Position numbers and translations under genes: made by a program
The notes under the pieces: generated by a model
What the model was told of the DNA's origin: nothing
Seen by the model: only the letters and a program-made list of their open reading frames with translations
The model's database searches: none
In this document: one piece after another, positions 1 to 32,932 of the stretch
Position numbering within the stretch: position 1 is the stretch's first letter
How the letters are laid out: the number at the start of each line of letters is the position of its first letter
From: Daucus carota subsp. sativus
Lineage: Eukaryota > Streptophyta > Magnoliopsida > Apiales > Apiaceae
Reading direction: 5' to 3'
Assembly (NCBI RefSeq): GCF_001625215.2
Contig: NC_030386.2
Location: forward strand, 18,694,545 to 18,758,544
DNA: 64,000 nt

Positions 1-306
1 TAAAAATTATTTTCCAAAAATATGTTCAAGCTTCCACAATTTTATTCCAACTTTCTAGCTTCCCGCGTGTGCCATGTCAGTTTGTGATAAGGCTGATCCC
101 AATTATCTAGGGGTTTAATTTGAATTCAAATTAATTTAAAACCCAACTGAACTCCTAATAATGTGGCTAGTTGTAGAGTTCCAGCTAAACTCTCCCTCTT
201 CACCTGCCTAGCCTCTCCTCGGGAAGCCGTGCATCATCAAGGCTATCTTCACGCCTTTCCAATCCAGTCATGCCACCTGGCGCGTGTGTCTCCCACTTAC
301 CACTAC
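1..306. other. Non-coding retrotransposon interior upstream of the antisense ORF
   Basis: This stretch holds no convincing ORF. By element order it belongs to the region between the antisense ORF promoter and the left (3') LTR, which is outside the window. Short open frames here lack recognisable domains. Confidence 0.5.
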
Positions 307-312
307 TATAAA
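307..312 (+). promoter_or_regulatory. TATA box for the antisense ORF
   Basis: A TATAAA lies about 30 bp before a CT-rich leader. It is followed by a good splice donor (AAAG|GTATGT, exon end about 455) and an acceptor (TTGTAG, 1246-1247) directly before the ATG at 1248. This gives a plausible promoter with a non-coding first exon (about 340-455) and a 5'-UTR intron of about 790 bp (456-1247). It would drive transcription opposite to the retrotransposon's own gag-pol. Confidence 0.5.
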
Positions 313-1247
313 TTCATGCCTCCGAAGCCTTGTTTTACTTTTTACTTTTAACTCTCACATCTTCCCTCTTACACTTCTCTCACACTCGAAGCACTCCAGA
401 CGCTAGTTTACTTCTTCCGGCGACCCTTCGGCTTTTCTCCGATTTTCAACCAAAGGTATGTTTCTTGACCTCCGGCTTTCCTTTTCGTTACATTCATCTA
501 TGTTTGTGGCTAGATGCTTGTATGATCCATGCCTGTCTGCCCCTTTTTCTCTTGACTGTTCACCTCGGTATGCGTGCACACACCCACATTTGCCTTGCTT
601 GATGTTATTATGCCCGATTGAACCGCTAACTTGCCCTGCATGCTAGTTTTAGTGAAACATGTACACTCATCCTTTGAATATACACACACCACTGGCTTTA
701 ATTGACCCCAATTAGGTCCCGATTATTTCCCAACTGGGTTATCGCCCTTGGTGTTGTCGCATTGCTTTGAGGCCATGATCGTAACCCTAGATTGTAAACC
801 CTAGGTTCCCAATCGCCTCCAGGGGGGAACCCCTCTTTCACAATCGAACCCCTCTTTTTGTGCCCTTTATCTGCTGTGAATGTATTGTTTGTGTGATTTG
901 CTTGCCATACTTGTTTAGCTGATATCTTAGGATTGTGATTGGGCGTTGATTGTTGTGGTTGAGATTAGGGTTAGGATTAGGCTTCCCGCTCCGGGTCCCT
1001 TGTTGGGCTTCCCGAAGAAGATGAACCGTCCTCCGTGGCCTATGCTACTTCCTGTGAGGGACGTAGCCCTCTTACACTTCAAGGCTCCAACCGAAGCCTT
1101 TTCACTCCCCCTTCACACCCGTAGGGCTCCACCCTTGCAGCCCAGTCTTCCGCAAACCCTTTCTCCTTCTCCCTTTTTGTTTTTCTTTCTCTCGACCGCT
1201 CCTCATCTTGCTGTGTCCTTTCGTTAACCCATCCTTTCCTATTGTAG

Positions 1248-3590
1248 ATGTCTCAAGGATCCATGTCCTCACACTCTTCTCAGTCTGCCACCAGCAAGGC
1301 TCCCGTTGTTGCGGTTGACACGGGATCCTCCTTTAGCCAGGACCTTCAACCTGCCCGGCCCAGTTTAGGGGTTAGCTCCAGGACCCGCTCCAGGCGCAAT
1401 TTGGTGGTGAAGGAGCTCAACTGGACCACCTCTGAGTCCAGTAAGGCGGATGGGACCTCGGGCCTCCCGCTGGACCCTGCTACTGAAGCCCTCGAGGGGA
1501 GCCCCGAGGAGGCTGAGCGGGAGGCTGAGGCTTCCGTGGAGGTGATCGAGCCTCCAGCTGTAGTCCTGGCCTGCGAGCATATGGACTCCATCATGACTCC
1601 TGTTCGGCTGCAGTCCCTATTGGAGTCCTGCAACCCTGGCTGCACCTTGGGGATCCCGAAGCCAGGAGAGAGGTGTCACCGCTTCGACACCCTCAAGCCA
1701 GGCACTGGCTACCCCAAAGCCGTGCTTTCCGCCCAGTTCTTCAGGCTGGGTTTGTCTCTTCCCCTCCATCCTTTCATCCTGGAGGTCTTGGACTTCTATG
1801 AGGTCTCCCCCATGCAGCTCACCCCCAACTCCTACCGCATGGCGGTCTGCCTCTACATCCTCTATGACATCCACCATGGGGTGAGGATGTCTGCTTTGGA
1901 GTTAGGCTGGTTCTTCCAGCTGAAACTTACTGGCAGGACCCCAGGGTTCTTCTACCTCACTGCCTGGAACACCCACCACAAGAAGGGCATCAAGGGCAAC
2001 CGCCAGTCGATGTCGGACTGGCAGAAGCTCTTCCTTTACTGCTATGACTGCCCAGTCTACAGGAAGGACTTCAATCTCTCCCCCAGTAAGCCAGCTTTTC
2101 CTTAATCCATTGTCCAGTTTAGCCCTTTAGGGTTCCCGTTTAGTTTCCTTATGCTTGTATTTGTTGTAGACATGCCAGTGCAGACTCCTCTGGCGGGAGA
2201 GTCCCTTGAGAGGGCCAAGCATGTGTTGGGGCTATCCACCGGGCTAGGTGATGGCTCCAGCCTGCTTACTCCAGAAAATCTGGAGAGGCTCGGTTTTTCC
2301 ACTACGGTGGTAGATGCATCCCCCGTTGACGAGGGGGGTGCAGATGTGGAAGCGACGGGAAGCCCAGGTTTTCTCTTAGCTTGCACCTTACATGATATTT
2401 ACTTTATAAATTCCCTTCCTGCATGCTTTATGATTTTTATGCCATCTGCTATGCATGCATCTTCCCATATTTCCGTATACGTTTGCATATTATCTAATTA
2501 TTTCCCCTTGTCTCTTTCCACAGATATGGCTGCCAACATCCCACGGTTCATCAAGCGTTCTACCAAGTACGAGGATCTGTTCGGGGAAGCCTCCGATTCT
2601 CAGGCTCCCCTCTCTGTCAAGCCTCTCTCCCAGCTTCCTTCTCCCTCCTTAGAGCAGAAGAAGGCCTCTTCCGGGGGTCGCAAGCGGGACCCCTCTAAAG
2701 CCGTCGAGGCGGGGTCTTCAGCTGAAGGCCGCTCCAGCAAAAAGCCCAAGCTGGCCCTGGCACGTAATTCCCCCGCTCCTTCCTCCACTCAGAAGACTCA
2801 GCTCTTCCAGAGGATGCTCTCCGACCAGGTATCTGAGGCCACTATCCGGGAGTGGGATAGGCTTTCCATTGCTGAGGCCACCCGAGACAAGATGGTGGCC
2901 AACGCCAAGAGCCTATTCCTCGACCTGAAGATGGGGGAGCACGTCGCCGATACCGCCCGGGTGAATGAGACTATGAGGGCGGACCTGAAGCAAGCCAGGG
3001 CCGATCTGGCTTCCGCTGTCAAGGAGAGGGACACCTTCCGGAAGGCCAACCTCAAGTTCAAGGAGGCGGAGGGCGAAGCTCGGCGGCTGAAGGAGAAGGA
3101 GGACATGGTGAGGAAGGGCCTTGAGGAGGAGGTTGACGGCCTGCGGAGGCAGGTTAAGGAGCTGGAGCTGCAGGTGAAAGGCCTTCAGGATGCGGCTGCC
3201 ACCATGAAGGCAGGGAGGAAGGAGAGGGAGGCTACCATCTTCGAGGCCGGGGTAGCTGCAGGCATCAAGGACTGCGTTAAGTCGGCCTACAGGTTCTTTC
3301 CTGAGAATGACTGGGCAAAGTTGGGGCCTGACGCTGCGGTGGCCCTGGAGGAAGCCAAGGCTGAGGATGAGGCCGTCATGGATAAGGCCCTGGCTGCTTC
3401 TCAGGGTCTCTCCGGTGATGGTGGCGACAAAGGGGTTACGGCTGAGGATCAGCCAAAGCCCGCAGAGCTGGTTTCTGCGGGTCTTGTGGTGACACCCCCG
3501 GAAGGGGTTCCGGCCGTAGCCCCGGCGGTAGCCTCTCAGGATCCCCCAGCCGTTGATGAGAAGGACTCCTCCTCCCCTGCTGCTCTTTGA
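1248..3590 (+). CDS. Antisense additional ORF (aORF) with putative gypsy-type transposon domain
   Basis: This is a host-like intron-containing gene inside the Tat element, opposite in strand to gag-pol. Proposed coding exons are 1248-2085, 2170-2367 and 2524-3590. Donors are A|GTAAGC and CAG|GTTTTC, acceptors TTGTAG and TTCCACAG, and phases match to give 700 residues. Residues about 160-270 (motifs FRLGLSLPLHPF, GWFFQLKLTG, FFYLTAWNTH) look like PF04195, 'putative gypsy type transposon'. Residues about 490-580 form a long charged coiled coil, and the C-terminus is acidic and low in complexity. The last intron is 156 bp with no stop, so its retention would stay in frame. Such ORFs are known from plant Tat elements; their function is not established. 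The splice sites are inferred. The alternative is three separate frames. Confidence 0.7.
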
Positions 3591-4290: not shown

Positions 4291-5240
4291 GCCTTGAAAG
4301 CCTTGATAGGCTTGAAACCTTGAAAGCTTGAACAGCTTTAGCCTTGAAAGCCTTGATAGGCTTGAAACCTTGAAAGCTTGAAAAGCTTTAGCCTTGAAAG
4401 CCTTGATAGGCTTGAAACCTTGAAAGCTTGAAAAGCTTTAGCCTTGAAAGCCTTGATAGGCTTGAAACCTTGAAAGCTTGAAAAGCTTTAGCCTTGAAAG
4501 CCTTGATAGGCTTGAAACCTTGAAAGCTTGAAAAGCTTTAGCCTTGAAAGCCTTGATAGGCTTGAAACCTTGAAAGCTTGAAAAGCTTTAGCCTTGAAAG
4601 CCTTGATAGGCTTGAAACCTTGAAAGCTTGAAAAGCTTTAGCCTTGAAAGCCTTGATAGGCTTGAAACCTTGAAAGCTTGAAAAGCTTTAGCCTTGAAAG
4701 CCTTGATAGGCTTGAAACCTTGAAAGCTTGAAAAGCTTTAGCCTTGAAAGCCTTGATAGGCTTGAAACCTTGAAAGCTTGAAAAGCTTTAGCCTTGAAAG
4801 CCTTGATAGGCTTGAAACCTTGAAAGCTTGAAAAGCTTTAGCCTTGAAAGCCTTGATAGGCTTGAAACCTTGAAAGCTTGAAAAGCTTTAGCCTTGAAAG
4901 CCTTGATAGGCTTGAAACCTTGAAAGCTTGAAAAGCTTTAGCCTTGAAAGCCTTGATAGGCTTGAAACCTTGAAAGCTTGAAAAGCTTTAGCCTTGAAAG
5001 CCTTGATAGGCTTGAAACCTTGAAAGCTTGAAAAGCTTTAGCCTTGAAAGCCTTGATAGGCTTGAAACCTTGAAAGCTTGAAAAGCTTTAGCCCTGAAAG
5101 CCTTGATAGGCTTGAAACCTTGAAAGCTTGAAAAGCTTTAGCCTTGAAAGCCTTGATAGGCTTGAAACCTTGAAAGCTTGAAAAGCTTTAGCCTTGAAAG
5201 CCTTGATAGGCTTGAAACCTTGAGAGCTTGAAAAGCTTTC
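4291..5240. repeat. 50-bp tandem array, 19 nearly identical units
   Basis: Nineteen head-to-tail copies of a 50-bp unit beginning GCCTTGAAAGCCTTGATAGG. Nearly all units are identical; I see single changes in the first unit (AACAGC), the unit at 5091 (GCCCTG) and the last unit. Each unit has two AAGCTT sites and is itself built from a shorter GCCTTGAAA-like word, so a roughly 10-bp repeat probably amplified first. The array sits between pol and the 3' LTR. In Tat/Ogre elements this region is known to be hypervariable and to seed satellite repeats. The homogeneity implies recent expansion, and copy number in the assembly may be unreliable. Confidence 0.97.
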
Positions 5241-5713: not shown

Positions 5714-6610
5714 CTACTGGTAATACCTCTTTAAGTGTTGGGCATTCCATGCCCGTGGTATGAGTCTTCCATCCATGTCTGTGAGGTGATAGGTACCTTC
5801 CCAAAGCACTGTTTTGATGATATATGGGCCTTCCCACTTTGCACCGAAGGCCCCATGAGCGGGAACCCTCATGTTAGGCATCATTTTTCTGAGAACTAGG
5901 TCTCCCGTTTTGAGGGGTCGAGCCCTTACTTTCTTATCAAAATATTTACGGGTCCTCTGTTGATATGCAGCAAGTTTCAACTGAGCCGTATCTCGTACTT
6001 CTTCAATCAGATCTAAGTAGAGCCTGTGGTTGACTTCATTATTCTCAGGGTCGTAGTTATCCCTTCGAAAAGATCCCGCTCCAACTTCCACGGGAACCAT
6101 GGCTTCACACCCGTATGTTAAGGTGAACGGGGTTTCGCCGGTGGTAGACCTTGGAGTGGTATTGTAAGACCACAACACCATGGGAAGTTCTTCTGGCCAG
6201 CATCCCTTTTTCTCTTCTAATTTGGCTTTCAGGGTGTGCTTAATAATCTTGTTTACGGCCTCAGTTTGACCGTTGCTCTGAGGGTGGCACACCGCGGAGA
6301 AGCCTTTCTTTATGCCAAGGTTTTCACAAAAATTCATCATTTCATTGCTGTCAAACTGTTTCCCATTGTCTGATATGAGCTTGTAGGGAACCCCGTAACG
6401 ACAGACGATTGCGCGACAAACGAAGTCTACCAACTTCCTTGCAGTGATGGAAGCTAGGGGTTCAGCTTCAGCCCATTTAGTAAAGTAATCTACAGCCACG
6501 ACTGCATATTTCACCCCTCCTTTCCCTTTTGGCAATTCACCAATCAGATCTATCCCCCAAACAGCAAACGGCCAGGGGCTTGTCAGGGTCTTCAGGGTAG
6601 GGCTGCTCAT
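5714..6610 (-). CDS. Integrase core and C-terminus of gag-pol (distal part of split polyprotein)
   Basis: This frame encodes the catalytic core of a Ty3/gypsy integrase, which would join retrotransposon cDNA to chromosomal DNA. The acidic triad is visible as D21 (WGIDLIG), D81 (ISDNGKQF) and E117 (NGQTEAVN), with 35 residues between the last two: the DD35E pattern. A GPY-like region (KWEGPYIIKTV) and WNAQHLKRYY follow near the C-terminus. The first six residues come from the hAT-type MITE, so the ATG at 6610 is not native; true pol sequence starts at 6597. The frame is the same as that of the upstream gag-pol part once the MITE and one target copy are disregarded. Confidence 0.9.
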   Translation of the reverse strand: MSSPTLKTLTSPWPFAVWGIDLIGELPKGKGGVKYAVVAVDYFTKWAEAEPLASITARKLVDFVCRAIVCRYGVPYKLISDNGKQFDSNEMMNFCENLGIKKGFSAVCHPQSNGQTEAVNKIIKHTLKAKLEEKKGCWPEELPMVLWSYNTTPRSTTGETPFTLTYGCEAMVPVEVGAGSFRRDNYDPENNEVNHRLYLDLIEEVRDTAQLKLAAYQQRTRKYFDKKVRARPLKTGDLVLRKMMPNMRVPAHGAFGAKWEGPYIIKTVLWEGTYHLTDMDGRLIPRAWNAQHLKRYYQ

Positions 6611-7308
6611 GGGTTGTCCAACCCGTTAAAACCAACCCAACCCAACCTTAAACTAGGCCGACTAACCCGACCCATTCCAAACCGTGGGTTAATTGGGTTG
6701 ATTTTTGGTTGAGCCGTTTATAATGGGTTGGGTCGAAATATAACTTTTAAGAAACCTTAAACCAACCCAACCCGGTCAAAATACATCTTTAACACTTTGA
6801 TAAAATATTTTTGGTTCCTCAAGGAACTATATTTACTTATTTGATGATAGAATGTGCAGTGAGTGTAGTGCAATGTGCAGAAACAATTAGAAATAAAGCT
6901 TTGTAGTTCAAATCAAACGACTCACATTGCTAGTTCTTATGATTATATATCATGGCAGAAACATTATTTTTAATAGTTATTACTTTATTAAGATTCAGTT
7001 GTCCACCTTAGTATGGAAAGAATATCTGCACTCTAAAAGCACATGATATTTTGTATCGGTGCATGTCCTATGTTATTGCTAATTGTACAAAAGAAAATGG
7101 TGCAAAACATATTTTGGATTATGCTTATCTTGCAAATTTTTCAACCCGATTAACCCTACCCTAACCAACCCAACCCGTCATACAATTAGTAGGGTTGGGT
7201 TTCTAATTATTTTTATGGTTAATGGGTTAAATTTTTGTAACCCGTACTAAATGGGTTGGGTCGCTTGAATGGCTGAAACCGGCCCAACCCAGCCCATGTG
7301 CAGCCCTA
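6598..7308. mobile_element. hAT-type MITE inserted in the integrase
   Basis: A 711-bp non-autonomous element flanked by an exact 8-bp duplication, CTTCAGGG (6590-6597 and 7309-7316). Terminal inverted repeats start TAGGGCTGCTCATGGG on the left and TAGGGCTGCACATGGG on the right. The 8-bp duplication and TAGGG ends fit the hAT superfamily. Both ends carry many GGGTTGG/CCAACCC words, like subterminal transposase-binding repeats. It has no transposase ORF. Its first bases in the minus frame give a TAG stop that ends the upstream polyprotein. Confidence 0.95.
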
Positions 7309-10300
7309 CTTCAGGGGTACCGCGGGACTCTTGTTTGTATTAGAGAACCTCTGGCAGCTGTCACAGGCCCTGGCGAAGGCATGAGCATCCTTGTGGAGGG
7401 TAGGCCAGTAGTAGCCTTGACGAAGGATTTTGTGAGCGAGGGAGGCACCCCCCGAGTGATTCCCACAGATCCCCTCATGCACCTCGCGCATAATGTATTC
7501 ACACCTTACCCCAGCGACACACCTGAGGAGGGGCCGATTGAATCCCCTTTTGTAAAGGATTCCATCATAAATTACATACTGGGCAGCCTTGTACCTCAAT
7601 TTTCTGGCCTCATCTTTGTCTGTAGGCAGGGTTCCATTGGCTATGTATTCGTGGATTGGGGTTGTCCAGAGGTTAGTCTCATCAGCTTCAACATCCATGA
7701 CTTCAATTTTGGGGATGCTAGGCTGATACTGGATTTCGAGGGGGATCACCCCGAGCATGTGTGCATCCCTCTGAGAGCCTAATTTGGCTAAAGCATCAGC
7801 ATCTGCATTCTCAGACCTTGGTATTTGCTCTAGCTTGATTTCTCTGAATTTTCCAATTAATTCCTGGGCATACCGCATATAGAGATCAGTGCGGGGACCC
7901 CTAGCTTGGAAGCCTCCTCGGATGTGCCAGACTACCAGCATAGAATCACTGTAAACATTCATGTTTTCCACTCTCATTTCCAAGGCCAGCCTCAGGCCAG
8001 CTATTAGGGCTTCATACTCCGCGTCGTTGTTAGTGGCATTGAAGTCGAAATGAATGGAGCTTTGCAGCTTATGGCCTTCCGGACTGACTAAGACAATGCC
8101 AGTCCCGGCCCCATTTCCATTTACAGCCCCATCGACGTACAGGTTCCACCAAGGGGAACAATTCTCAGGTATGGCTACTGAAGACTGGGGTTCAGGTGTG
8201 CATTCCATCCCTTCGACCCCAAAAGTAGGTGGAAATTCTAAGATGAAGTCAGCTAGCGCTTGCCCCTTTATTGCGGTTCTAGGCTTGTACTCTATGTCAA
8301 ACTGGCCCAGCTCGACCGCCCATTTCATGATTCTTCCCGAGGCTTCCGGCTTGTGCAAGACCTGTCTGAGAGGGAAGGATGTTCGTACTTCAATCTTGTG
8401 AGCCTGAAAGTAAGGCCTTAATTTGCGGGAAGCCAAGATTAGTGCATAGGCTAACTTCTCCATGTTTGAGTAGCGGGTTTCAGCATCAAGTAATCTCTTG
8501 CTCACATAGTATACTGGCTGTTGGGCTTGCTCTTCCTCCTTGATCAGGACGGCGCTAATTGAGAACTCGGAAACCCCTAGGTAAAGGATCAAGGCTTCAC
8601 CCTCCGTTGGCTTGGCCAGCAGGGGCGGGCTTCCAAGTTGCTCTTTCAGCTTCAGGAAAGCAGCCTCACATTCTGTCGTCCATTCAAATTTTTGCCCCTT
8701 TTTTATGGCTGTGAAAAATTCTCTACATTTGTCTGAGGATTTTGAGATAAACCGGTTTAGGGCGGCGACCCGGCCTGTAAGGCATTGCACCTCCTTTACG
8801 TTCCTAGGCGACCTCATTTCAATTAAGGCCTTGATCTTCGCAGGGTTAGCTTCGATTCCCCTGTGATTGACAATGAAGCCCAAGAACTTGCCGGATTCAA
8901 CCCCGAACACGCATTTTTGGGGATTCAACTTCATCCTATAATCCCTCAGTATGTCGAACATCTCTGATAAGTGTGTAACATGATCGTAAGCCTCCTTTGA
9001 TTTTACTAACATGTCATCTACATACACTTCCATAGTTCTTCCAATCTGATCTTTAAACATCTTATTGACCAGCCTCTGATATGTAGCCCCAGCGTTTAAT
9101 AGCCCAAACGGCATGCCTATATAGCAATAAAGCCCCCTGTCGGTGATGAAGGAGGTGTGTTCCTGATCTGGCTCGAACATGGGGATCTGATTGTAGCCCG
9201 AGTAGGCGTCCATGAAGCTTAACAGTGCATGCCCCGCAGTGGAATCCACCAATTGGTCAATTCGAGGGAGCGGGAAGCTATCCTTAGGGCAAGCCTTGTT
9301 CAGATCAGTAAAGTCTATGCAAGTCCTCCACTTCCCGTTAGGTTTTTTCACCAACACTGGGTTTGCTAGCCAAGTGGGGTAAAAAGCTTCTTTCACTAGG
9401 CCTGCCTTCAATAGTCGGTCTACCTCTTCTTGAAGAGCGGTAGCCCTTTCCCCGCTAATTGGTCTTCTTTTCTGTCTGACTCCCTTCCTGTCTGGGTCAA
9501 CATTGAGGTGGTGGCACATGACTTCTGGGTGAATCCCGATCATATCCGAATGGTTCCAAGCGAAGACGTCCAGATTATTCTTTAAGAATGCGGTCAGGGT
9601 TTCCCTTAGGTCCGGTCCCAACTGTTCCCCAATTTTTAGTTCTTTAGTGGGGTCGGACTCATCCACCAAGATGGACAGGGTATCCCCGGCTGCTCCAGTC
9701 TTCACCTGGGTTTCCGGCATCCTTGGGTCGAGGTCGATCTCAACGGTAACCTCTTTGTTGCCACCCTCTTGGGGTTGCGTACCCAAGATTTCATGAACGG
9801 GAAGCCGTGGTCGGTTTCCGAGTTGATAGGTTACCATAGCACTATTGAAGTCACAAGGTGCCTCGCACTCATTTTCTTGCTTTTTATTTTGGGGCTGCTT
9901 TTGACCATCCCCTTCAAAGTCACTGTCAGTAACATCTTCCACAATCCCTTCAACCAGGGTTTCAGCTGTATCAATGTTTTTCACCGGGAGTGTATCCGTG
10001 GATGCAAGCCCTTCATGCACGGCATGCGAGGCTTCTAGATAAGGGTCTTCCCCCGGATGTTGCACGATAATCACCATGTTGCAGGTTGCTTTCACAAACT
10101 TTATTAAAACCTTTCCCTGAGCCTTGGTTTCAGGTTCCTCTTCAATATCCACCTGCTTGTAACAGCTCTCCGGGATGTCTTCATCCATCTGTTGGGCTTC
10201 TTTACAGGCTTTTACTGCGGACCTCAAAGCATTACTATAACATTCCCGGGAGTCAGCCTGACATCCTCGTACACATCCTACCCCATTGGGGGTTGGGAAC

Positions 10301-12594
10301 TTCATGGATAGGTGGTATATCGAGGTTACAATCCGCATGTCCCTTAAGATAGGTCTGCCCAGGATCCCGTTATAGGAGATGTCTTCGTTGACTACCATGA
10401 ATTCTGCAACCTGAGTGACAGCCCGGGGTTCCACTCCGAGGGTGATCGGGAGTCTTACCCTTCCAACAATCTGGACAGCATTCCCCGTAAAACCATACAA
10501 CTCATTATAGCAAGCCATCATATCCTTATCCGCCATTTTCATTCTTTGGTACGCACTGTAAGCCAAGATATTGACAGAGCTTCCGTTATCGACAAGAAGC
10601 CTGTGTACATTGACATTTCCGATCACGGCTGTTACCACCAGGGCATCGCTATGAGGATGGTGTACCGCGCGCGCATCCCCCTCAGTGAAGGTAATGTCCA
10701 TAGTCTCCCCTTTGAACATTTTGGGAGGCCTTTCAGACAGATGGCACACATTGGTTAAGGGCGGCCCTCGGGCTTCCCGTACATATCTCTTCATAGCACT
10801 GCGTCCCTGGCCTCCCACGAAGGGCCCTCCGATGATCATTCGTACACTACCAGCGCGGGTGTTACGGTTGGCTTCCTGGTTATTTGCCCTTTCAGCTTTC
10901 TTTTCCTTATATTTCTTAGCCTCTTGGGCTACAAACTCCGTCAGGTACCCTGTTCTGATAAGATCCTCTATGTGGTCTTTAAGATGAACACATTCCGCCG
11001 TGTCATGTCCGTTCAAATCGTGGAAAGCACAATATTTTCCCTGATCTTTCTTTCCAGGGGGTCCATTTCGAAAGGGCTTCCGGAAGAGTCTCGCCTTGTC
11101 TCCGACCTCAAAAATGTGATCTATAGAAGCCGTTAGTGGCGTGTATTCGTGGTACCTCGCTTCTCTTGCCTTTCTCATTGTCAACCTTGACTTATCGAAG
11201 CCCTGCGTGCTGGTTGTGTTCACGGTAATGGGTGAAGTCTTGCCGTCTCGGCTCGAGGATTTTTCGCCAGCAGGCCTTACGTAGGGATTCCTCTTGTAGG
11301 TGTTCCTCCTATCTGGGCTGTAAGACCTATCCCTCTTGTTTTTCCAGCTGCTACGGCTTTCAGACTTTGACTCCTTCTTCAACTTAGCCAGGGATTCCTC
11401 GATCACTTTATGGGGTTCAGCCCTAGCAAAGAAGTCAGCTAGGGTTTCAGGCTCTCGCCCTTGCAACTCCTTCCAAAAGTCTGTTCCAGGCCTTACCCCC
11501 GCTATCAAGAAATTCTTCAGGGTTTCCTTTGAAGTTGGCCTAACCCGGGGTACCTCTGCGTTGAAGCGCTTGAAATATTCTCTCAATGTCTCATGTTCCT
11601 TTTGCTTAATGTTGGCCAGGGTGTTGGCAGGTGGGGCGTAAGTGACGGAAGCCCTGAATTGTCCCACAAATAGTTCGCACATTTTCCTCCAAGAGCTGAT
11701 GGAGTCAGCGGGAAGCCTCTTGAACCAGTGATGAGCGTCATCCCTGAGGGTTGCAGCCAACAAGCGACATTTTGTGAGGTCCGGAATCTGGTAGACCTCC
11801 ATCTCAGTGTCAAACCGGCTAAGATACTCCACGGGATCCGTGGTTCCGTTAAATCGCAGGTCGCCAACCCCCCTGTAGATACGTGGTAGGGGTGACTCCC
11901 TAACCTTCTTAGTAAAAGGTGACTTTACGGTAAGCTCGGCTTTCGACTTCTTATCGGCTTTCACCTTCTTTAGGGCTTCCAGTAGTTCTTCCATCTTGCA
12001 CTTATCATCCCCATCATTGAGTGCAACCTCATAATCATCATCCAGGGGTTGGTCTTTCTTCTTGCTCACTTCATTATCATTGTGCGACCCTGAGCTTTCC
12101 TCATCGTCATGAATGGAGATAACCTTTGACGGCCTTTGGTTTTTATCCTTTGACCGAGCTTCAGACGTGGGCTTCTCCGGTCGTTGACTGGGAGGAGCCC
12201 TATATTGCGAGCCTTCAGGTCCATCCCCGTTAGGGGCCTTGTTGCCAAGCCTGTGCCGCAAGTCTTGCTCGGTCAGTTTCCTCCCAAGGCGGTCGAACAC
12301 ACTAGCAGCCTGTGAGTGCTCTCTATCATCCATTTCGGGGTTAGCTTCTTTCTCAGGGTTGCCACCTTCTTTTCTGCCGCCTTCTGCACCGAAATCTAGC
12401 TTGGTGGGAGTCACCTTGCTAGCCTTTTTCGACCTTGCTGACTTTCTTTTCAAGGAGGCAATCCTCCTACTCATTCTCTTCATTTTTGCCTTCATCTCCT
12501 CGCGGGTCAGTTCTCCGCTTGGAAGATCGCTTTCATCCTGCGTAGCGCCTTCCGGCGTCTTGGGGTTTTCAGTGTTTTCGGGAATTTCTGACAT
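7306..12594 (-). CDS. Gag-protease-RT-RNase H polyprotein, truncated in integrase by MITE
   Basis: A 1,762-residue frame. Rough order by residue: Gag near 240-400 (DDAHHWFKRLP at about 285), a Cys/His knuckle-like stretch near 520 (YCAFHDLNGHDTAEC), aspartic protease near 668 (LVDNGSS), reverse transcriptase near 1085-1200 (YVDDMLVKS at about 1190), first RNase H near 1340, second RNase H near 1485-1610, and the integrase HHCC zinc finger near 1705-1750. The first RNase H lacks the usual first Asp (LYLGVSEFS where LETDAS is common). The second, archaeal-like one keeps its acids (YVDGA, NNDAEYEAL, VYSDS, NADADALA). This dual arrangement is typical of Tat. The frame ends at a TAG supplied by the MITE at 7306-7308. 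A short leader of 46 bp separates the ATG from the LTR. Confidence 0.93.
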   Translation of the reverse strand: MSEIPENTENPKTPEGATQDESDLPSGELTREEMKAKMKRMSRRIASLKRKSARSKKASKVTPTKLDFGAEGGRKEGGNPEKEANPEMDDREHSQAASVFDRLGRKLTEQDLRHRLGNKAPNGDGPEGSQYRAPPSQRPEKPTSEARSKDKNQRPSKVISIHDDEESSGSHNDNEVSKKKDQPLDDDYEVALNDGDDKCKMEELLEALKKVKADKKSKAELTVKSPFTKKVRESPLPRIYRGVGDLRFNGTTDPVEYLSRFDTEMEVYQIPDLTKCRLLAATLRDDAHHWFKRLPADSISSWRKMCELFVGQFRASVTYAPPANTLANIKQKEHETLREYFKRFNAEVPRVRPTSKETLKNFLIAGVRPGTDFWKELQGREPETLADFFARAEPHKVIEESLAKLKKESKSESRSSWKNKRDRSYSPDRRNTYKRNPYVRPAGEKSSSRDGKTSPITVNTTSTQGFDKSRLTMRKAREARYHEYTPLTASIDHIFEVGDKARLFRKPFRNGPPGKKDQGKYCAFHDLNGHDTAECVHLKDHIEDLIRTGYLTEFVAQEAKKYKEKKAERANNQEANRNTRAGSVRMIIGGPFVGGQGRSAMKRYVREARGPPLTNVCHLSERPPKMFKGETMDITFTEGDARAVHHPHSDALVVTAVIGNVNVHRLLVDNGSSVNILAYSAYQRMKMADKDMMACYNELYGFTGNAVQIVGRVRLPITLGVEPRAVTQVAEFMVVNEDISYNGILGRPILRDMRIVTSIYHLSMKFPTPNGVGCVRGCQADSRECYSNALRSAVKACKEAQQMDEDIPESCYKQVDIEEEPETKAQGKVLIKFVKATCNMVIIVQHPGEDPYLEASHAVHEGLASTDTLPVKNIDTAETLVEGIVEDVTDSDFEGDGQKQPQNKKQENECEAPCDFNSAMVTYQLGNRPRLPVHEILGTQPQEGGNKEVTVEIDLDPRMPETQVKTGAAGDTLSILVDESDPTKELKIGEQLGPDLRETLTAFLKNNLDVFAWNHSDMIGIHPEVMCHHLNVDPDRKGVRQKRRPISGERATALQEEVDRLLKAGLVKEAFYPTWLANPVLVKKPNGKWRTCIDFTDLNKACPKDSFPLPRIDQLVDSTAGHALLSFMDAYSGYNQIPMFEPDQEHTSFITDRGLYCYIGMPFGLLNAGATYQRLVNKMFKDQIGRTMEVYVDDMLVKSKEAYDHVTHLSEMFDILRDYRMKLNPQKCVFGVESGKFLGFIVNHRGIEANPAKIKALIEMRSPRNVKEVQCLTGRVAALNRFISKSSDKCREFFTAIKKGQKFEWTTECEAAFLKLKEQLGSPPLLAKPTEGEALILYLGVSEFSISAVLIKEEEQAQQPVYYVSKRLLDAETRYSNMEKLAYALILASRKLRPYFQAHKIEVRTSFPLRQVLHKPEASGRIMKWAVELGQFDIEYKPRTAIKGQALADFILEFPPTFGVEGMECTPEPQSSVAIPENCSPWWNLYVDGAVNGNGAGTGIVLVSPEGHKLQSSIHFDFNATNNDAEYEALIAGLRLALEMRVENMNVYSDSMLVVWHIRGGFQARGPRTDLYMRYAQELIGKFREIKLEQIPRSENADADALAKLGSQRDAHMLGVIPLEIQYQPSIPKIEVMDVEADETNLWTTPIHEYIANGTLPTDKDEARKLRYKAAQYVIYDGILYKRGFNRPLLRCVAGVRCEYIMREVHEGICGNHSGGASLAHKILRQGYYWPTLHKDAHAFARACDSCQRFSNTNKSPAVPLK

Positions 12595-12640: not shown

Positions 12641-13581
12641 TGTTGTGAGAGGAATTGATACAACACCCCCAGAACCGTATAGCACAATTATAGGGATATC
12701 TGTTACAACTACGAGAATCACGGCTAGCTCTTAGGGGCTACCGTTGACATAAACTAACGAAACAAATGAGAAACAAGTGTGTTTAAGGGCTGAGCTTGCA
12801 AAGAACCAAACAACGAGGCCGGAATTATGGAATTCCGTCCTGCAATTGCCCGGAAATATCTGTCACAAAGGTTACACGTGCCTCTCTTTAGAGTGTAGAA
12901 CTCGTGAAAATGATTCTCGTCCCTTTGCAAGGTGCCTACATACCCTATATTTATAGGGATCAAGCCCATGTAGTTCTCGATTTAGGACTCTGAAGAGATA
13001 AGCTCTTATCCCCTCTAGTTTAGGATAAAACAGCCTTCTTTCAGTAGTTATCCAGCGGTATCCCACTCCAAGTAGGTCACTTGAAGCCTTCATCTTCAAT
13101 ATATATCCGAATATATGTGAATTATCTCCTCCCATCATAATTATCTTCATAATAGATGCATTTATCCCTTAATTCGTAGATAAATAATAGCTGATACACT
13201 CCCAATATGTCTCCAATTCGTCCTCCTAGAAACAAGGAAGAAGAGTCCTGTTCGGAGTCTGCCTACCATTCTGCCCAGGCGGCGGAAGCCCTGCCAGCGG
13301 CATCCCCTAGCTGCACCCCCATAACTGCAAGCCAGGACGCACTTAGCGGTAACCCCTAGCAGCGGTAACCCCTAAAGCGCCTTCAGGTGCAACCCCATTC
13401 TGATGGCAGCCTTCATTATGCTTCCAGTGTAAGTCCGTACTCCTTCTTGTACACCTTCAGTGATCCACCCAGCCATGGTGAAGCCCATTATTCTTAACCA
13501 AATGATTCCAATAAGCCCAAGTGAAGCCCAAATAATATGATGGGCTATAAAATAAGCCCAGGGAGATCTTATGGCACAACA
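12641..13581 (-). repeat. 5' LTR of the Tat element (941 bp)
   Basis: The ends are a short inverted repeat: TGTTGTG at 12641 and CACAACA ending at 13581, giving TG..CA termini in element orientation. A PBS-like motif follows directly on the inner side. The expected partner LTR is outside the window, so LTR identity and target duplication (which would be CTGTC at 13582-13586) cannot be checked here. The region includes tRNA-free, unique-looking sequence and a TATA motif. Confidence 0.8.
12948..12955 (-). promoter_or_regulatory. TATA box in the LTR
   Basis: TATAAATA on the minus strand inside the LTR, in a short palindromic setting (CCCTATAAATATAGGG). It lies about 300 bp from the inner LTR edge, a reasonable place for the U3/R promoter of the element. 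Confidence 0.5.
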
Positions 13582-16528: not shown

Positions 16529-16728
16529 ACATTTGTCGAGTATAAATATGATGGCGGAAATTGCAGTGAATATGACCAACCTCTGATGGCCTGAACATTT
16601 GTCGAGTATAAATATGATGGCGGAAATTGCAGTGAATATGACCAACCTCTGATGGCCTGAACATTTGTCGAGTATAAATATGATGGCGGAAATTGCAGTG
16701 AAGATCTTCCGACCAACCTCTGATGGCC
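16529..16728. repeat. Three 66-bp tandem units in the PIP5K 3' UTR region
   Basis: Units start at 16529, 16595 and 16661, each beginning ACATTTGTCGAGTATAAATA. The first two are identical as far as I can read. The third diverges at its end, where ATGACC is replaced by GATCTTCCGACC. The array begins 88 bp beyond the PIP5K stop codon, so it is probably transcribed as part of the 3' UTR. Confidence 0.9.
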
Positions 16729-19800: not shown

Positions 19801-21676
19801 TTTGACAAAGCATTCTGCAAGATTTCTTTGCCAAACAATTAAATTAGTGGAAGCAATATAATGTGCAGAACCTTCTGACGAATAGTTAGATAGAACAGCC
19901 CCAATAGTATCCAGTCATCCACAGACTGAGGTGCCAAATTTGTCCATGTGGTTTATATGAATATATTTAGAAAACCAGAGGAGAGAATTTGACGCTTGAT
20001 TATCTCATTTGTATATTCTTATTATATGCCAACAAAAGAAAAGATTAAGTTTGGGGAAAGGCTTTGCATAAGGTAAGAAATATACCCGATATCCTGTTTC
20101 CCTTACAAAAAGAGAGCAAAATCTTTTTAAGTCTTAAAGCAAGAACTTTGTAGTAAAAACATTTGATTAGTGCTAAATTCTCACTCTAACTATTCACGAA
20201 ATACGCTTCAAAATCATATCAGGTCACAACAAAATGAAGGAACACGTGGCACGTCTTTGTTGGACATTCCAGATGTTCAAAATTAAGTTCAATGACTATT
20301 GACAACAATAATTAAAATCCTCGGAAAAAATGGTTGATATAACACATAAATTAACAGCCTAAGCTTAAGTGACTGTTTATCAGTTACTTCCTACAGCAGT
20401 CATTATCATGCCAAGGGAAGGATCAAGTTCACCCGATACCATATAGGAGAACCACGAGATAACAACACTGCATATATATAGCTGCTTAGCAACAATATAT
20501 AATGGAAAAGTATAACTAATTCAATACATACCTTATTCCAAGCTGAAGATTAAGCATAAGCTCATAATTCTTGTGCCCTTTACTTATTGTTTGCCCCTGT
20601 CTCCTTGGAGGTCGTATCCTGATGTTTTTTGGGATCCCGCTGGACTCATCCCAATCATCAATCTGGAGATTCCCTAAACCTTCATTTATTTCTTTTCCAT
20701 CTACTGAATTTCTGTTAGAAATCTCAGAGGTAAGGTCAGTTTCAGAACCCCAACTAGTCTCGCTACCACTGTTGAGCCTAGAATCAATCGACTTTCTCCT
20801 TGATCTCGTTTTTCCATCCCTTCCCTTAAAACTCTTGCCATCTTGACCAGTAGGCCAACTCAACATCTTTTGTGAAGGATATATCGGAATACTTTCACCT
20901 TCACATACTCTACAGTCAACTAATTCAATCATAACATCTTGAGGTTCCCAATCAAAATCCTCTGCATCTTCAGTTGCAGGATGATAAGTGCCATTCTGTT
21001 CCTTGGAATCAGAATTCCAAACACCCTCATAAAAACTCCCATCTTCCCATCGAAAAATCCCACTCCCATTAGGAAGTCCAGCCTCCCAACACCCCTCATA
21101 CACATTCCCATTCTTCCAAGTCATTGTTCCATTGCCACTCATCTCCCCGTTCTTCCACTCTCCAGTGTACTGATTACCAAAATGCCAAGCATATCTCCCG
21201 TTCCCTTCTTGCACTCCACGACGCCAATCACCATCATAAGAATCTCCATTAGCATAATGCCTAGTTCCAGTACCATGCTTCACATTCATATTCCACTTCC
21301 CTATATAAATATCATTTGAAGAACCCGAATAAATCCCTTCACCATCGAAAAAACCATCCTTAAATTGACCCTCATAACTGGCTCCCCCAACCCAAGTATA
21401 CTTACCTCTACCAGTCATCTGACCTTTCACCCACTCACCTATATACAAACTCCCATCAGCCCACACAAAACTCCCCTGACCATGAGGGCAGTTGTTTTGC
21501 CATTGGCCTGTATAAACATCACCACTTGAGAAGGACTTTTCGATATCTCCACCATCCACTGGACTATTCACTTCAGTATCATCTGCATGGGCTACTGTCA
21601 TTGTTGCAAAAATGCTCTTTGCCCTTTTTCTTGCAACTGCTTGTGATTTTCTTACTGTTGCTTCCCAGGCCTTCAT
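16816..21676 (-). CDS. PIP5K: Phosphatidylinositol-4-phosphate 5-kinase, MORN-repeat type
   Basis: The enzyme phosphorylates PI4P to PI(4,5)P2 at the plasma membrane. I read eight coding exons: 21676-20532, 19077-18910, 18579-18414, 18241-18125, 18025-17832, 17509-17412, 17321-17252 and 17098-16816. Phases fit throughout and give 746 residues, the usual size for plant B-type PIP5Ks. Exon 1 carries eight MORN units (YTGQW, YIGEW, YEGQF, YIGKW, YDGDW, YTGEW, YEGCW, YEGVW). The kinase core follows: [17 protein letters not shown] (nucleotide-binding loop and Lys), [19 protein letters not shown], and an activation-loop region ending SKRFRDFI. All donors are GT; exon 6 uses a weak one (AAG|GTTGTA). 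The ATG at 21676 opens the conserved [10 protein letters not shown] start. Nothing is missing; it looks functional. Confidence 0.95.
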
Positions 21677-22180
21677 TTTCTTTATCTATGTAAATCTCCA
21701 CAAGCAAATCAATGAATTTTTTTATATATTCATCTAATTTTCTCCACCACCACCACTAACCTAAATCAATCTTTCTGTGTATCATCAATTCAACTCCAAA
21801 TAACTGAACAACCATTTAAATTCAAAAAATCAATAAACCACAAAACAAACAAAAAACAAGAACCCTAAAAAAAAATTCCCAAAATGGGAAATATCAACAA
21901 CAGCAAAATGCACCAACTTCCACTGATTTTCTTATGATTTCTCCAAAAGGGTATCTGCTTTTCAATGTTTCCTCAAAAGGGTATTCAAAATCTTAGAAAA
22001 AAATGAAGCCCATGCAATCAAAATCAACAAATAAAAGCAAAAGCATGAACAAACCAATGCTCTGTTTCAAGATATTTCTTCCTTTCTGGGTATTCCCTGT
22101 TTTTTTCTAGAATTTTGATTGATTGGGTATGCACTAGAGGCTCAACAACAACATTGTTCTTGGTACCCGAGTTTTTCTCC

Positions 22181-22189: not shown

Positions 22190-23193
22190 TAACAAGCCCA
22201 ACAATTGGAAGGATATAAAAAGGTGGTGAACTTAATATGTTTCTATTTATTCCATTTTAAGTGTTTGATTCAGACCATATATACATACAGAGATTTGTAT
22301 GTATAGCTCAGCAATTTTAGTTGATTACTACAACTCTACAAGGTACAAACACTTCTCCTTGTGACTTTCCTGTCTTTCAGTTTTTCCAAGGCTGTTTTGC
22401 ATGTTTTTTTATTTTGCTGTCGTTAGGTGTTAATGTTAGAATGGAAGATTTTATGCAATTATACTTTCATATTTGGACTCTTTTTGTGGGTTCACATCAT
22501 CTTTTTTTGTTTTGGCTATTTGGTCCCCCAACAACTGGTCCAAGATCTAACTATAGATGTACATTCGATTCAAAAGTATGGTTTGACCCTTTAGGAAAAA
22601 TCAGGAATGTTGGTCCAAAATATCGTAATCGAATCGGAAAAATTTATCTCTCATTTTCTTTAGTCGTGGCAAATTATCATCGTAAATCTAATTTTCAGTG
22701 TGAAAATTTGTCACAAGCAAAGACGTATGTAAAACATGTGACAAAAATCTACAACTTTTGAACTAAGATTTTAATTTAAAAACTTGCTATTCATGCACAT
22801 TATTACTTCTCGACATCTTATTATTAAGAAAAGAGGAGCACTAACCTATATTGATTAGGAAGAAAGGAGCATTAACCTAGATTCAATACCAAGAGTAGAG
22901 AAGCATCAACCTTGCAGATTTTTTACCAAAAAAGAGGAGCAAGGAGGCTTTGTTGCCTCTTTATCTGAAAAACTTGAATCCCAGTAAATTTAGTAATTTA
23001 TATGTACCATGAGGGAAGAAAACAAAGGTGACAGGAAAAACCAGCACAATCTATGACTTCTAACATAAAAATAAATTTAGTAATTTATACACTTGAATGT
23101 TTGGTAAAATAGGTTATGAAATCAAAGTCCTGAATATGACACAAATGAGGCCAACAATAATACTAAAATGAAGAGCCTGTACCAATAATTTTT
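22190..23193. other. Intergenic region between PIP5K promoter and NQR copy A
   Basis: No supported gene. A plus-strand open frame at 22,321-22,761 begins at TTG and has no family signature. Around 22,825-22,950 short purine-rich words (GAGGAGCA, AAGGAGCATTAACCT) recur loosely. Confidence 0.45.
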
Positions 23194-25648
23194 TTACTTT
23201 CCTTTGAGCCGCAGAGCATATGCGTGCAGAGACAGTAGGACCTTTTTCAAACTCTCCTTTGATTCAGCATCAATAAGGTTTCCATCAGCATCAAACTTAG
23301 CAGGAGCTTCAAACACGTTCAAGTAAAACTCTGGCTTATTAATAAAGTGAAGGTCGATGTAGATTCCTATTTGACGGAGGTGATACTGTGAGCGACCCCC
23401 TCCCCAACCTCCTCCAGCACTAACAATTGCAGCAGCCTTATCAGCCCAAACATTTGGCGGTCGGGATGCCCAATCTATAGCGTTCTTTAAAGGTGCTAAA
23501 CAATAGATTACACAACCGAGAGTATATTAAAAAAAATTTAACCATTTTTTAGTTTAGTTTGTTAGTTTAAAAAATGAGTTCTGGATGCATTTGAAGCTAG
23601 TGAGAAAAAATTAAAAGTAAAACGCAAAGCAAGAAAAACAAAATATACCCCTATTTATTTTTTCCGAATTTCATAGCTATTCTAAAGATTTAAAATAAGA
23701 TGACTGGAGAAGTGTCTGAATGATACCAAATGATTCAGCTACACAAGGGAATAACTTCTATATAGCTAGACATTAAGTAAATTTTTGTAGAAAGATAAGA
23801 TTACCGGTGACTGAATAATTGTACTCAGGTGAAGCAAAGAGATAGCAATCTGCTTCCGCAATCTTGTTTCGAAAGGCCTCCACAGCAGCGGGGTATGTTC
23901 CATTTACCTCGAGATCAGTGTTCAGCATAGGCAAAGGTGATATATCCACATATTCCACCTTCACACCATTATTTAACTCCTTGGATATATCAATTACTAC
24001 ATCAAACACAAACACCAATTTTCCAACTTCCTTTCACCAACACAAAACTATAAGCTAAGCTTACACAGAAAAATTATATTCCATTAGTACAAAATTCTCA
24101 GAATCTTATGAATTTCGATATTCTAGAAACCTTAGAGCAACTCCAAGAGTTGCTCCATTAACTCCTCATAAAAATCATTATAATAAACACTCTTAGCTCA
24201 TTTACACATGAAGTGAATACTAGGACTCCAACAGCCTTCCTCAACATCCTCTTTGTCCACTTATAAATCAGTTTTTTATTCGTAACTGCTATTCGTCTTT
24301 CTCTGCAACAGATTCAAATGTCAGTGTTTCTCTTACATATTAATATAAAATTAGTTTAGGAGCTGATATATACTCCTCAGTACTGAGGAGAATCTTCCAA
24401 CTCCTAACTTTTTAGGAGGGAATAGAGAATCTGTTGGAGTATGGTTTTACATCAAATTCAGTATAATTTAACTTAGGAGGCAGTGTGAGGAGGCTGTTGC
24501 TGTTGCTCTATAATCACTTACAAGTTACAGGAATCCCCAATTCCCATAACAAATCCTTGTCCAAAACAGTGTAGAGAAACACGAAAAACTGGAAAAAAAA
24601 AACACAAACTCCAAATTTGAAGTGAAACCCGTGAGGCATGATTACTTGCACGATTTTTTTTTGTCAAAAATATAATTATCTATATAGTCATCTATACTTG
24701 TATTATAATTTTGAGAATGTTTGTTATAATAATAGTAAACAATAGGATAGTACTTGAAATAGTACATAGATAAAAGTCTCAAACAACATAGTGAAAAATA
24801 TTAGTGCATAAAAGTATCAAACTATCAACCAATAAAATTTAGTAAGTCAAAGGCTTCCATATCATTTAGCTCAATCTCAGTTCTCTCAAATTCTCTCTTC
24901 CTTATAAAGGTTTAACTAATTTCTAATAATGTTAGGAGTGTTTTGGTCTGTTTGTATATTATTTTTTTCCGAGCTTTTGCATTTTAGGCGATTGTTAGTT
25001 TCTCCAAGTAATCGCGTATCAAGCGAGATTTTATGCCAATTTCATAATCACACTAAATTGTTAATAAGCAGAACCTTCGCAGACTCACGAAGCGAGAATA
25101 AGTTAAATATAAAAGTAGATACATAACCATGGGAGAGATGTTACTTTAGCACCAAAATCACTTTTTGGTGTTAAATTATAACAATAACTCCACCTATTTT
25201 AGCACAAACATTGGACTTGCTCTAAGTGTATGTATGCATACACAATTCTATATCAATCTCATAAATTACACAGACTTAAGCATGACCCATAGAGAATAAA
25301 GCAAGTTGACAATTTTTGTTACTGCATCAAGAAACAAGAAATTCAGTTTCACTCATTTTAAGTGTATGTACGCAACCTACACAATCCTGAATCCATTATA
25401 CATTACTAAATTATGTATGAATATTTTCAAATTTAAGCTAAAGTTGTTTTTTCAAATTTAAGCTAAAGTTATCAAAATCTTTTTACAGAATGATGAACAA
25501 TTCTTGACACAAAGACGAAGAGGGGGAGGGAGGGAGGGAGGGAGAGAGAGAGAGTACCTGAACGGACAAGGCCGTGATTGAAGGAAGCTTTGCGGATAGA
25601 ACCAGAAATGGCTACAACTTTGACAAGTGGGCTAGCTATTGCCTCCAT
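23194..25648 (-). CDS. NQR: NADPH:quinone oxidoreductase, copy A (NADPH-dependent FMN reductase family)
   Basis: A flavodoxin-like FMN enzyme that reduces quinones by two electrons using NAD(P)H in the cytosol. Exons 25648-25558, 23996-23805 and 23495-23194 give 194 residues, close to the roughly 196 of the Arabidopsis NQR I recall. Seen motifs: GSIRKASFN (phosphate loop), SPEYNYSVTAPLKNAIDW (flavin contact) and GGGWGGGRSQYHLRQIG. I chose the ATG at 25648 because MEAIA is conserved in copy B; an in-frame ATG 12 bp upstream also exists. Intron 1 (1,561 bp) holds a MITE and starts in a CT-rich microsatellite. Copy B lies 3.5 kb to the right in the same orientation with identical exon lengths (91, 192, 302), so this is a tandem duplication. 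Confidence 0.93.
24135..24508. mobile_element. Probable MITE in intron 1 of NQR copy A
   Basis: The ends GAGCAACTCC and (reverse complement) GAGCAACAGC form a short imperfect inverted repeat. The left flank is TTA and the right flank TATAA, so the target duplication is not clean. The pattern resembles the GAGCAAGTCC element at 55,267. Class assignment is tentative (PIF/Harbinger-like). Confidence 0.45.
25521..25554. repeat. GGGA/GA microsatellite next to NQR-A splice donor
   Basis: A (GGGA)n tract passes into (GA)n and ends 3 bp from the intron 1 donor of copy A. On the transcript strand it is a pyrimidine tract immediately inside the intron. Confidence 0.9.
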
Positions 25649-25699: not shown

Positions 25700-27220
25700 G
25701 CACACACATGACACAACATCATATATATACATACATGCACGTGTAGTTTATTTTTATAACGAAGACAGGGGACTGCGGGACAACTCATTTGAGGTCCATT
25801 CACTGGATTGGGGCTGGATAACAAAATTCAGCATATGTCTTGTTATTGTATAAAGTAAACAACGGGATTATAAGCTACCAGAGAGTTTGGAAAATATGTA
25901 GAAGCTAAAAAAGAAATTATCAATTCTCGATGGCTTAAGATTGATTCTACTTTCAAAACTTTTCTGTCGCACTTGGCTCAAAACTAAGCATCGAAAATTC
26001 TTGAAACTGGATAAAGGATAAACTAATACCATAAACAAATTTATTATAAATTTATTATGAAGAATAGGATTACATATTTTTATTGTTCAAAAATTTAGTA
26101 AATTTTATGATTTAAGCTTTGTTGAATCTATAAATTTATACGAGATCTCATATCATCTTTTATCATAGTATAATAATATATTTTATTTATAATATAATAT
26201 ATATTAATATACTATTCCTTCCGTCTTATTTATTTCTTTACGATTTTCTCACTACTTGACATATGATTAAGATATACATAAAATATATTTTTATAACTTA
26301 TCTTTTAAATTATCTAATAAAAAAATTAGAAATATCAAAGTTGAATTATATTATACACTGTAATTTACATGCAATGTGTGCCCTTCATTAACAAGTGAAA
26401 TCTCATTTTAGTGAAGAATGAGAAATACAAAATACCAAAATTTGGTTATCATTTTATGATTTGAACAGTTATTTATGTGACAACACACACGATAAAACAA
26501 TTGAAATACAAAATATTAATAACATTAGTTTTGAATTAAATATAAATTAAATTCTCCGTTAGACTTTCATATTGGTTATAATTTTATAATGTAACGATTA
26601 TCTCACCAAAAGAATGACATTCTCAACAAAATTATTCAAAACTTTTAAAATTCAAACAAGTTATTTTACAAACCAACTCTACAAAATCAATATCATGTTT
26701 AAGAATTCAAATAAATAATGAATTCATATTGATATTATTAACCGAATCTATAATAATTATAGTAAAAGAATCGAAATACAAGATATTGTCAACAGAACTC
26801 GATAACTATTAGTTTTGAATTTAAACTTGAAAGTTCCACTAGACTATAATATTAATTTGTTAAACAGCTATTGAAATAGCTATTTAACTAATGTCAAAGA
26901 AATGATAATGTAACCAAATAAAAAGACATATTTTCAAAAAATAATAAATTTAAAATATTTATTTAAGTTCATACTTGTCACAGGTTATAGCCATCGGAGA
27001 ATAAAACAAAAAGTCAACTTGCAAAAATTGACCGGAAAAACCACCACAATCTCTTATTCCTTGCACACACATTCATGACAAGATACTAGGAAGCAACTTT
27101 CATGATTTAACACACAGTTTCACTTGTAATATGAAAATTACACATGAATGTTTGGTATAAAAGGTAATCAAATGAGGCTATCGACAATACTCAAATGAGG
27201 AGCCTGTACCAATAATTTTT
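25700..27220. other. AT-rich intergenic region between the NQR copies
   Basis: It holds the upstream region of copy A (TATATATA stretch near 25,688) and then about 1.3 kb of AT-rich sequence without ORFs or repeats that I can define. Confidence 0.5.
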
Positions 27221-32437: not shown

Positions 32438-32672
32438 ATAAAACACCAGCAGCCATCAACCTTGACCTATAATATAATATATGGCGGCGTATAATAATTA
32501 TAATTATAATTAGGATACTAAAACATTATATATCTGGTTAGCAGCCAGCAAGTTTGGCCCGCCTTTGTCTTTTTAGTTTTCAATCAGAAGGTCACCAATC
32601 ACTAAATTTAAATTGTAATTCTTTATGTAGAGCACTACAAATTGAATTTCTCAGGTGATCCAATGATTAGTA

Positions 32673-32930: not shown

Positions 32931-32932
32931 TA

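Follow-up and report, generated by a model that had tools for sequence, protein, structure and literature searches.

The antisense TRP28 ORF of an apparently Retand-type retrotransposon, found in a 64,000 nucleotide stretch of the Daucus carota genome (the window), is probably an accessory gene of that element: a Pol II gene that has four exons and an independent promoter, and whose transcript would be spliced to encode a protein combining a TRP28 domain, an NLS-like motif and a coiled coil.

The antisense gene and its carrier element

The components of the gene, all on the forward strand, are as follows.

300..315, plus strand: TATA-like promoter element CTATAAAT, near 307
335..455, plus strand: non-coding exon 0, start approximate; donor CAAAG/GTATG after 455
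456..1247, plus strand: intron 0, a 5'-UTR intron (GT...AG); acceptor TTGTAG/ATG, abutting the ATG
1248..2085, plus strand: exon 1, 279 complete codons and one base; donor CCCCA/GTAAG after 2085
2086..2169, plus strand: intron 1, phase 1, 84 bp; acceptor TTGTAG/ACATG at 2170
2170..2367, plus strand: exon 2, 198 nt; donor CCCAG/GTTTT after 2367
2368..2523, plus strand: intron 2, phase 1, 156 bp; acceptor CCACAG/ATATG at 2524
2524..3590, plus strand: exon 3, with the NLS-like motif KKPKL, a coiled-coil-like stretch, a variable tail and the stop codon (3588-3590)

When joined, the coding exons (1248-2085, 2170-2367 and 2524-3590) give 700 codons free of stops, followed by a stop codon; shifting donor 1, after 2085, by a single base causes the spliced frame to be lost. 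The sequence-only reading had proposed a TATA box, a non-coding first exon, a 5'-UTR intron and two coding introns, and its coordinates proved exact to the base. It had also described the gene as running against gag-pol, and the copy as largely open. The gene is indeed on the strand opposite gag-pol, but the two do not overlap, since pol ends at 5714 and the gene at 3590; similarly, the antisense gene is open, but pol is split by a hAT-like insert.

Exon 1 encodes a match to the Transposase_28 profile (PF04195) at residues 159-225, covering profile positions 1-67 of 69 with an E value of 5.6e-10; the score of 39.7 bits exceeds the cut-off of 26.2, so the HMM search proposed in the sequence-only reading upholds the Transposase_28-like domain suggested there. 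That this domain is joined to a coiled coil, as was also suggested, is supported by a coiled-coil-like stretch at approximately residues 480-590, which has weak, below-cut-off matches to the Fez1, Filament, TSC22 and BST2 models, all of which represent coiled-coil families. The NLS-like motif KKPKL, at residue 418, is encoded by exon 3; KKPKL, KKPRL or KKPKV is found in all 37 of the open copies described below. Exon 1 had no relative in the PDB at E<=1, and part of it folded alone gave a prediction too poor for use (mean pLDDT 41.9). With exon 1 again as the query, the viral_contigs collection returned 16 pattern matches and no relative, and the phage and plasmid collections no match; few plant genome sequences are present in these collections, so such absences carry little weight.

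The carrier lies on the opposite strand, and is arranged as follows.

G000:C6 (window extending over 18694545-18758544), minus strand: carrier LTR retrotransposon, 14,768 bp
12641..13581, minus strand: 5' LTR, 941 bp; TSD CTGTC on each flank
5714..12594, minus strand: gag-pol (gag, RT, RH, aRH, INT), interrupted
6598..7308, minus strand: nested hAT-like insert, about 711 bp, with TIRs TAGGGCTGC... and 8-bp TSD CCCTGAAG, read by eye
4291..5239, no strand assigned: tandem array, 50-bp unit in 19 copies with dyad modules of about 25 bp, in the interval towards which pol and the antisense gene converge
G000:C6:18693358-18694298: 3' LTR, outside the window, 246 bp before its start

The two LTRs are identical at 941/941 bases and the CTGTC TSD is present at both ends; hence the carrier is whole and young. 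The pol profile matches (RT_RNaseH at 1334-1432, RVT_3 at 1488-1605 and Integrase_H2C2 at 1700-1751) place aRH between RH and INT, giving the order RT, RH, aRH, INT. Two RNase H domains, with the extra aRH in this position, are common to Ogre and Retand elements (PMC6317226), and the carrier shares the Retand arrangement of an antisense TRP28 ORF between pol and the 3' LTR. Such ORFs are reported in 97% of recently active Retand clusters (PMC11963269), whilst the share of Retand elements with Transposase_28 was just 23% in Neumann 2019 (PMC6317226). The LTR of 941 bp and the distance of about 5,959 bp from pol to the 3' LTR both lie inside the reported Retand ranges (315-1,194 bp and 2,933-6,566 bp respectively; PMC11963269); the internal region, at 12,886 bp, is 17 bp over the reported range of 7,380-12,869 bp, and includes the nested insert of about 711 bp. 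The antisense PF04195 ORF points to Retand, and the carrier may be classed as a Retand-type (Tat) Ty3/gypsy element; both this ORF and the aRH domain order fit the initial assignment to Tat. Five bases past the 5' LTR, in the primer-binding-site region, is TGGCGCTAGAAGGAGGGG, which matched none of the few tRNA ends that were tried.

The insert in pol, which we take to be hAT-like, is bounded by the TIRs TAGGGCTGCACATGGG...CCCATGAGCAGCCCTA and sits between the zinc-binding and core parts of the integrase. A sense-strand intron of the Ogre-like kind was considered for this sequence, and is ruled out by the terminal inverted repeats and the 8-bp TSD. Its presence inside the integrase of an element whose two LTRs are identical points to two recent insertions, one nested in the other.

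Other repeats occur elsewhere in the window. Three copies of a 66-bp unit lie head-to-tail at 16529-16728, and three sequences of 160-270 bp (30284-30473, 32671-32932 and 60123-60285) match their own reverse complements at 69-83%, as would foldback or MITE-like elements. There are also local direct duplications with 77-87% identity (23142-24118 and 27169-28877; 38486-39136 and 40897-41512; 39979-40741 and 43438-44256), whilst the region 20001-22000 has a GC skew of -0.35, strong relative to the rest of the window.

Conservation of the frame, leader and splice sites

When the host genome (11 contigs, 441 Mb in total) was searched at the DNA level, 213 candidates were returned, of which the best 40, including the window's own copy (L010), were scored and all read. 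These form 16 clusters at 2% divergence; the copies are therefore related, and counts of them do not represent independent events. The whole spliced frame is open in 37 of the 40, a share of intact genes that may be biased upward as these are the best-scoring of the 213 candidates. Of the three that fail, L020 has a frameshift in exon 3, L048 has one in exon 1, and L049 lacks the greater part of exon 3. Exon 1 is 838 nt long in 39/40 copies and exon 2 is 198 nt long in every one; the length differences in exon 3 among the 37 open copies are all multiples of three.

Values of dN/dS were calculated by the Nei-Gojobori method, as a ratio of means, for 16 representatives; L020, L048 and L049 were excluded from the codon alignment, in which L021 stood for the cluster containing L020, whilst the frame control retained L020. 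The ratio was 0.043 for exon 1 (0.016 for the TRP28 part), 0.079 for exon 2 and 0.162 for exon 3, the last having a dS of 0.56 and a dN of 0.09. In the frame control of exon 1, the annotated frame alone among the six was free of stops, with a dN/dS of 0.04. The other two forward frames had ratios of 2.5-3.9 and 7-16 stops per copy; two of the reverse frames had ratios of 2.4-3.0 and 3-14 stops, and the third, in codon register with the annotated frame, a ratio of 0.09 and 13-15 stops per copy. The equivalent codon-register reverse frame of exon 2 is stop-free, with a ratio of 0.27 (annotated frame, 0.09), and that of the first 400 nt of exon 3 has a ratio of 0.16 and 2-5 stops (annotated frame, 0.08 and none). 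These low values in codon register (0.09-0.27) are a requirement of the geometry, and the annotated frame has the lowest ratio in each exon tested (for exon 3, its first 400 nt). Coding on the sense strand, considered as a source of the constraint, is ruled out by the reverse-frame stops in exon 1 and in the first 400 nt of exon 3. When read as coding sequence in all frames the introns gave 0.35-1.35, and are without codon-like constraint in the 16 representatives. Neutral divergence of the frame, which the sequence-only reading had named as one of two observations that would count against its model, is thus excluded by the ratios of 0.04-0.16 in the exons, and the comparison of copies shows selection on the antisense gene at the level of the protein.

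The signals flanking the coding exons are also maintained. TATAAA or TATATA is in place in 39/40 copies, the window's own included, one of them having a single-base gap within the motif. Exon 0 contains no ATG in any of the 40 copies (25 distinct sequences), where about 0.87 per copy would be expected from base composition, despite a mean difference of 21% among representatives; intron 0 carries 8-17 ATGs, and its removal would make the AUG of exon 1 the first in the transcript. Eight further, more distant copies were read, in seven of which the TATA motif is kept. Seven of the eight, with exon 1 diverged by 11-15% and introns by 11-38%, were added to give 47 copies in all; the other, L050, was excluded from this count as its 5' part did not align, although its introns 1 and 2 show GT and AG. 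Of the 12 splice dinucleotide positions, 10 are invariant across the 47 copies and the other two are conserved in 46: introns 0 and 1 have both dinucleotides in every copy, whilst in intron 2 one copy has GC at the donor and one AC at the acceptor. By comparison, 125/768 interior columns of intron 0, 17/60 of intron 1 and 27/132 of intron 2 are invariant (16-28%). Comparison therefore shows that the splice sites and an ATG-free leader are conserved, from which we infer that the transcript is spliced.

Intron 1 is present in 48/48 copies aligned. A 206-nt query spanning the exon 1-exon 2 junction identified no intronless retrocopy, with only half-matches among the 40 scored of 184 candidates; a record of past splicing, which such a retrocopy would have supplied, did not therefore emerge, and this weighs somewhat against the model. 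On the other hand, the constant presence of intron 1 and the lack of intronless junctions agree with the proposal, made from the sequence alone, that introns on the strand opposite the genomic RNA survive reverse transcription: the genomic RNA would hold the complement of the introns, rather than splice signals, and reverse transcription would copy the gene with its introns intact. The antisense position may hence explain how introns persist in a retroelement.

Three other explanations of these data were considered. Intron 2, or both coding introns, might usually be retained, resulting in a 285-aa product of exon 1 and a separate product of exons 2 and 3. A single frame does run from 2151 to 3590 through intron 2 in the window copy, retention of this intron leaves the sequence open and in frame in 20/47 copies, and Vicient 2025 (PMC11963269) lists separate antisense ORFs, identified using ORF Finder. 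However, retained intron 1 introduces an in-frame stop in 45/47 copies (all except L052 and L056), retained intron 2 causes a stop or change of frame in 27/47, and few letters of the introns are as well conserved as the splice sites; we therefore regard habitual retention as quite unlikely, although for intron 2, given the 20 copies left in frame, the case for splicing consists of site conservation and the lack of codon constraint. That the frame has been kept only through the youth of the copies, the gene being a passenger with no present function, might be suggested by the identical LTRs of the carrier and by the 90-100% identity to the window that 34 of the 40 scored matches show over their matched length. 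Yet this is very hard to reconcile with the high synonymous and low non-synonymous divergence of exon 3, with the introns having no codon constraint in the same 16 representatives, or with the seven far copies, which keep their splice sites, except at intron 2, where one donor and one acceptor are changed, alongside introns diverged by 11-38%.

It is also conceivable that the antisense transcript rather than a protein is active, through the formation of dsRNA or siRNA with the genomic RNA or by blocking the element in cis. A role for antisense RNA has been raised as a possibility (PMC7264820), and the whole length of the gene lies antisense to the genomic RNA. Such pairing would not, however, yield low dN/dS in one frame, notwithstanding the similarly low codon-register reverse frame, and leaves unaccounted for both the changes of length in multiples of three and the contrast between exon 0, free of ATGs, and intron 0, rich in them. 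As a substitute for the protein an active RNA is thus unlikely, but it may act in addition to it.

Linkage to pol, mosaicism and the dyad array

The RT of the window (8200-9700) was used as a query, and 40 of 619 candidates were scored. All 40, the window's own included, are accompanied by a copy of exon 1, oppositely oriented and at a distance of 5.9-7.2 kb; the comparison used 72 of 139 exon-1 places (139 having been scored of 618 candidates) and 33/40 of the gene matches. Comparison hence shows the antisense gene to be linked to pol in the copies checked. Divergence of the two is not parallel: RT identity is 97-100% in the 40 scored, against gene identities of 88-100% where both are known, and copies with an RT identity of 98% have genes at 88-99%. 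A single uniform age for the gene is ruled out by dS values of 0.08 in exon 1, 0.05 in exon 2 and 0.56 in exon 3. Among L010-L049, synonymous divergence rises about seven-fold or more from exons 1 and 2 to exon 3, with a sharp break near the boundary of intron 2 and exon 3 (2368-2530 compared with 2530-3590). Positions 1-1247 differ by 13-21% from one representative to another, whereas the strip adjoining the 3' LTR differs by only 6%. The gene therefore looks mosaic, most simply through recombination between elements that would have combined old exon-3 and promoter modules with young backbones.

Eight copies of TRP28 from other families (L001-L008) were aligned in three groups. By tblastn (E<=1e-3), three of the eight match the protein of the window, being 35-43% identical over 40-89 residues. 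In the alignments coding similarity runs to a GT and resumes past an AG, and the intron following the TRP28 exon is in phase 1 in 8/8 copies, as in the window family. As these sites were picked by eye, the matching phase is good, but not blind, evidence on the age of the intron. The second intron is in phase 1 in the window family but seemingly in phase 0 in two of the other groups, and so may not be homologous.

The tandem array was followed through the 40 scored copies of the window family, units being accepted at <=8 mismatches to that of the window. The 50-bp unit was found in 37/40 copies, with the same majority sequence at 50/50 positions; such uniformity could also come from sequence exchange between elements. 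No array was in view in L037, L042 or L043, either by the unit scan or by TRF. In six far copies (L062-L067), with exon 1 diverged by 11-15%, the periods are 50/51, 103, 192 and 251, and L067 has hardly any array; the modules in these copies are nonetheless all of one type, CCTTGAA followed by a dyad.

The arms of the dyad change together, as AAGCC/GGCTT, AAGCT/AGCTT and AGGGCT/AGCCCT. Covariation was assessed using 12 modules, chosen by hand from 85 distinct sequences and one of them trimmed from 41 to 27 nt. Of the cells, 92.9% pair and 11 are changed on both sides, with a covariation score of 0.42, each of these values being reached by 0/500 shuffles. Pairs changed on both sides number 4/7, matched by 43/500 shuffles, and there is no excess in the variety of pair types (477/500). 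Sliding one arm by one column reduces pairing to 46-63%, and single strands fold at a z score near -2.9. These pairing-preserving changes fit a structured or dyad-symmetric site, although they would represent few independent events in modules related by repeat duplication. The arrays of Retand elements are described as family-specific and of unknown function by Vicient 2025 (PMC11963269), and a term search of the survey text found no mention of dyads in them.

Proposed function and relation to known systems

We suggest that Pol II would transcribe the integrated DNA from the gene's own TATA promoter, giving an antisense mRNA that would be spliced and translated from the first AUG, in exon 1. 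The predicted product, with its TRP28 domain, basic NLS-like motif and C-terminal coiled coil, would be nuclear and dimeric, and might regulate the element, through transcription or anti-silencing, perhaps via the neighbouring dyad array. A more specific version of this model, in which a TRP28 coiled-coil dimer translated from the spliced antisense mRNA binds the dyads and either shields the element from silencing or marks the border between convergent transcripts, is speculative, and we think it improbable as it stands.

Parts of this arrangement are already known from the literature on related elements. As here, Retand elements have an antisense PF04195 ORF between pol and the 3' LTR, often with tandem arrays in the same region (PMC11963269), and other antisense ORFs, coding for domains of which Smc is an example, are reported in them too (PMC11963269). 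The related element Grande of maize has an antisense gene, gene23, with its own upstream promoter, and the gene23 product is reported to be nuclear (PMC7264820). Hence the TRP28 antisense ORF, an internal promoter for such a gene and a nuclear location for a gene23 protein all have precedents (PMC11963269, PMC7264820). What appears to have been little noticed is the intron structure: the ORF of the window is read here as part of one multi-exon gene with conserved introns, including one in the 5' UTR, whereas the survey counts separate ORFs (PMC11963269). In the text of that survey the term 'intron' occurs 0 times, and 'splic' and 'exon' are found in reference titles only. Term searches covering this open survey and a review (PMC7264820) found no mention of introns in the antisense genes; the review itself calls for searches for antisense and spliced transcripts.

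Two more distant systems offer functional parallels. HTLV-1, an LTR retroelement, has in HBZ a regulatory gene that is antisense and spliced (PMC1459196), showing that such a regulator is workable in a retroelement; for the carrot gene, splicing is predicted from the conserved splice sites. The HBZ promoter is in the 3' LTR and its translation mostly starts from an exon in the LTR, whereas the window gene has an internal promoter and internal exons; no common descent is claimed. The VANC proteins of Arabidopsis VANDAL elements, encoded by intron-bearing genes of the element, bind tandemly repeated motifs in its non-coding regions and lift silencing (PMC5735166). VANDAL, unlike the carrier, is a DNA transposon, and the putative association of TRP28 with the array draws on the TRP28 exon and the array unit both being conserved.

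Under the preferred reading of a spliced, protein-coding antisense gene, the right protein for experimental tests is TRP28 joined to the coiled-coil tail with its NLS-like motif, and the adjoining dyad array is a candidate target for it. The splice junctions 455/1248, 2085/2170 and 2367/2524 provide concrete targets in existing RNA-seq data, and annotators could try joining exons that are now recorded as separate ORFs. If a matched system of gene and array proves to be general, many of the separate antisense ORFs reported in Retand elements would be exons of one ancient spliced gene.
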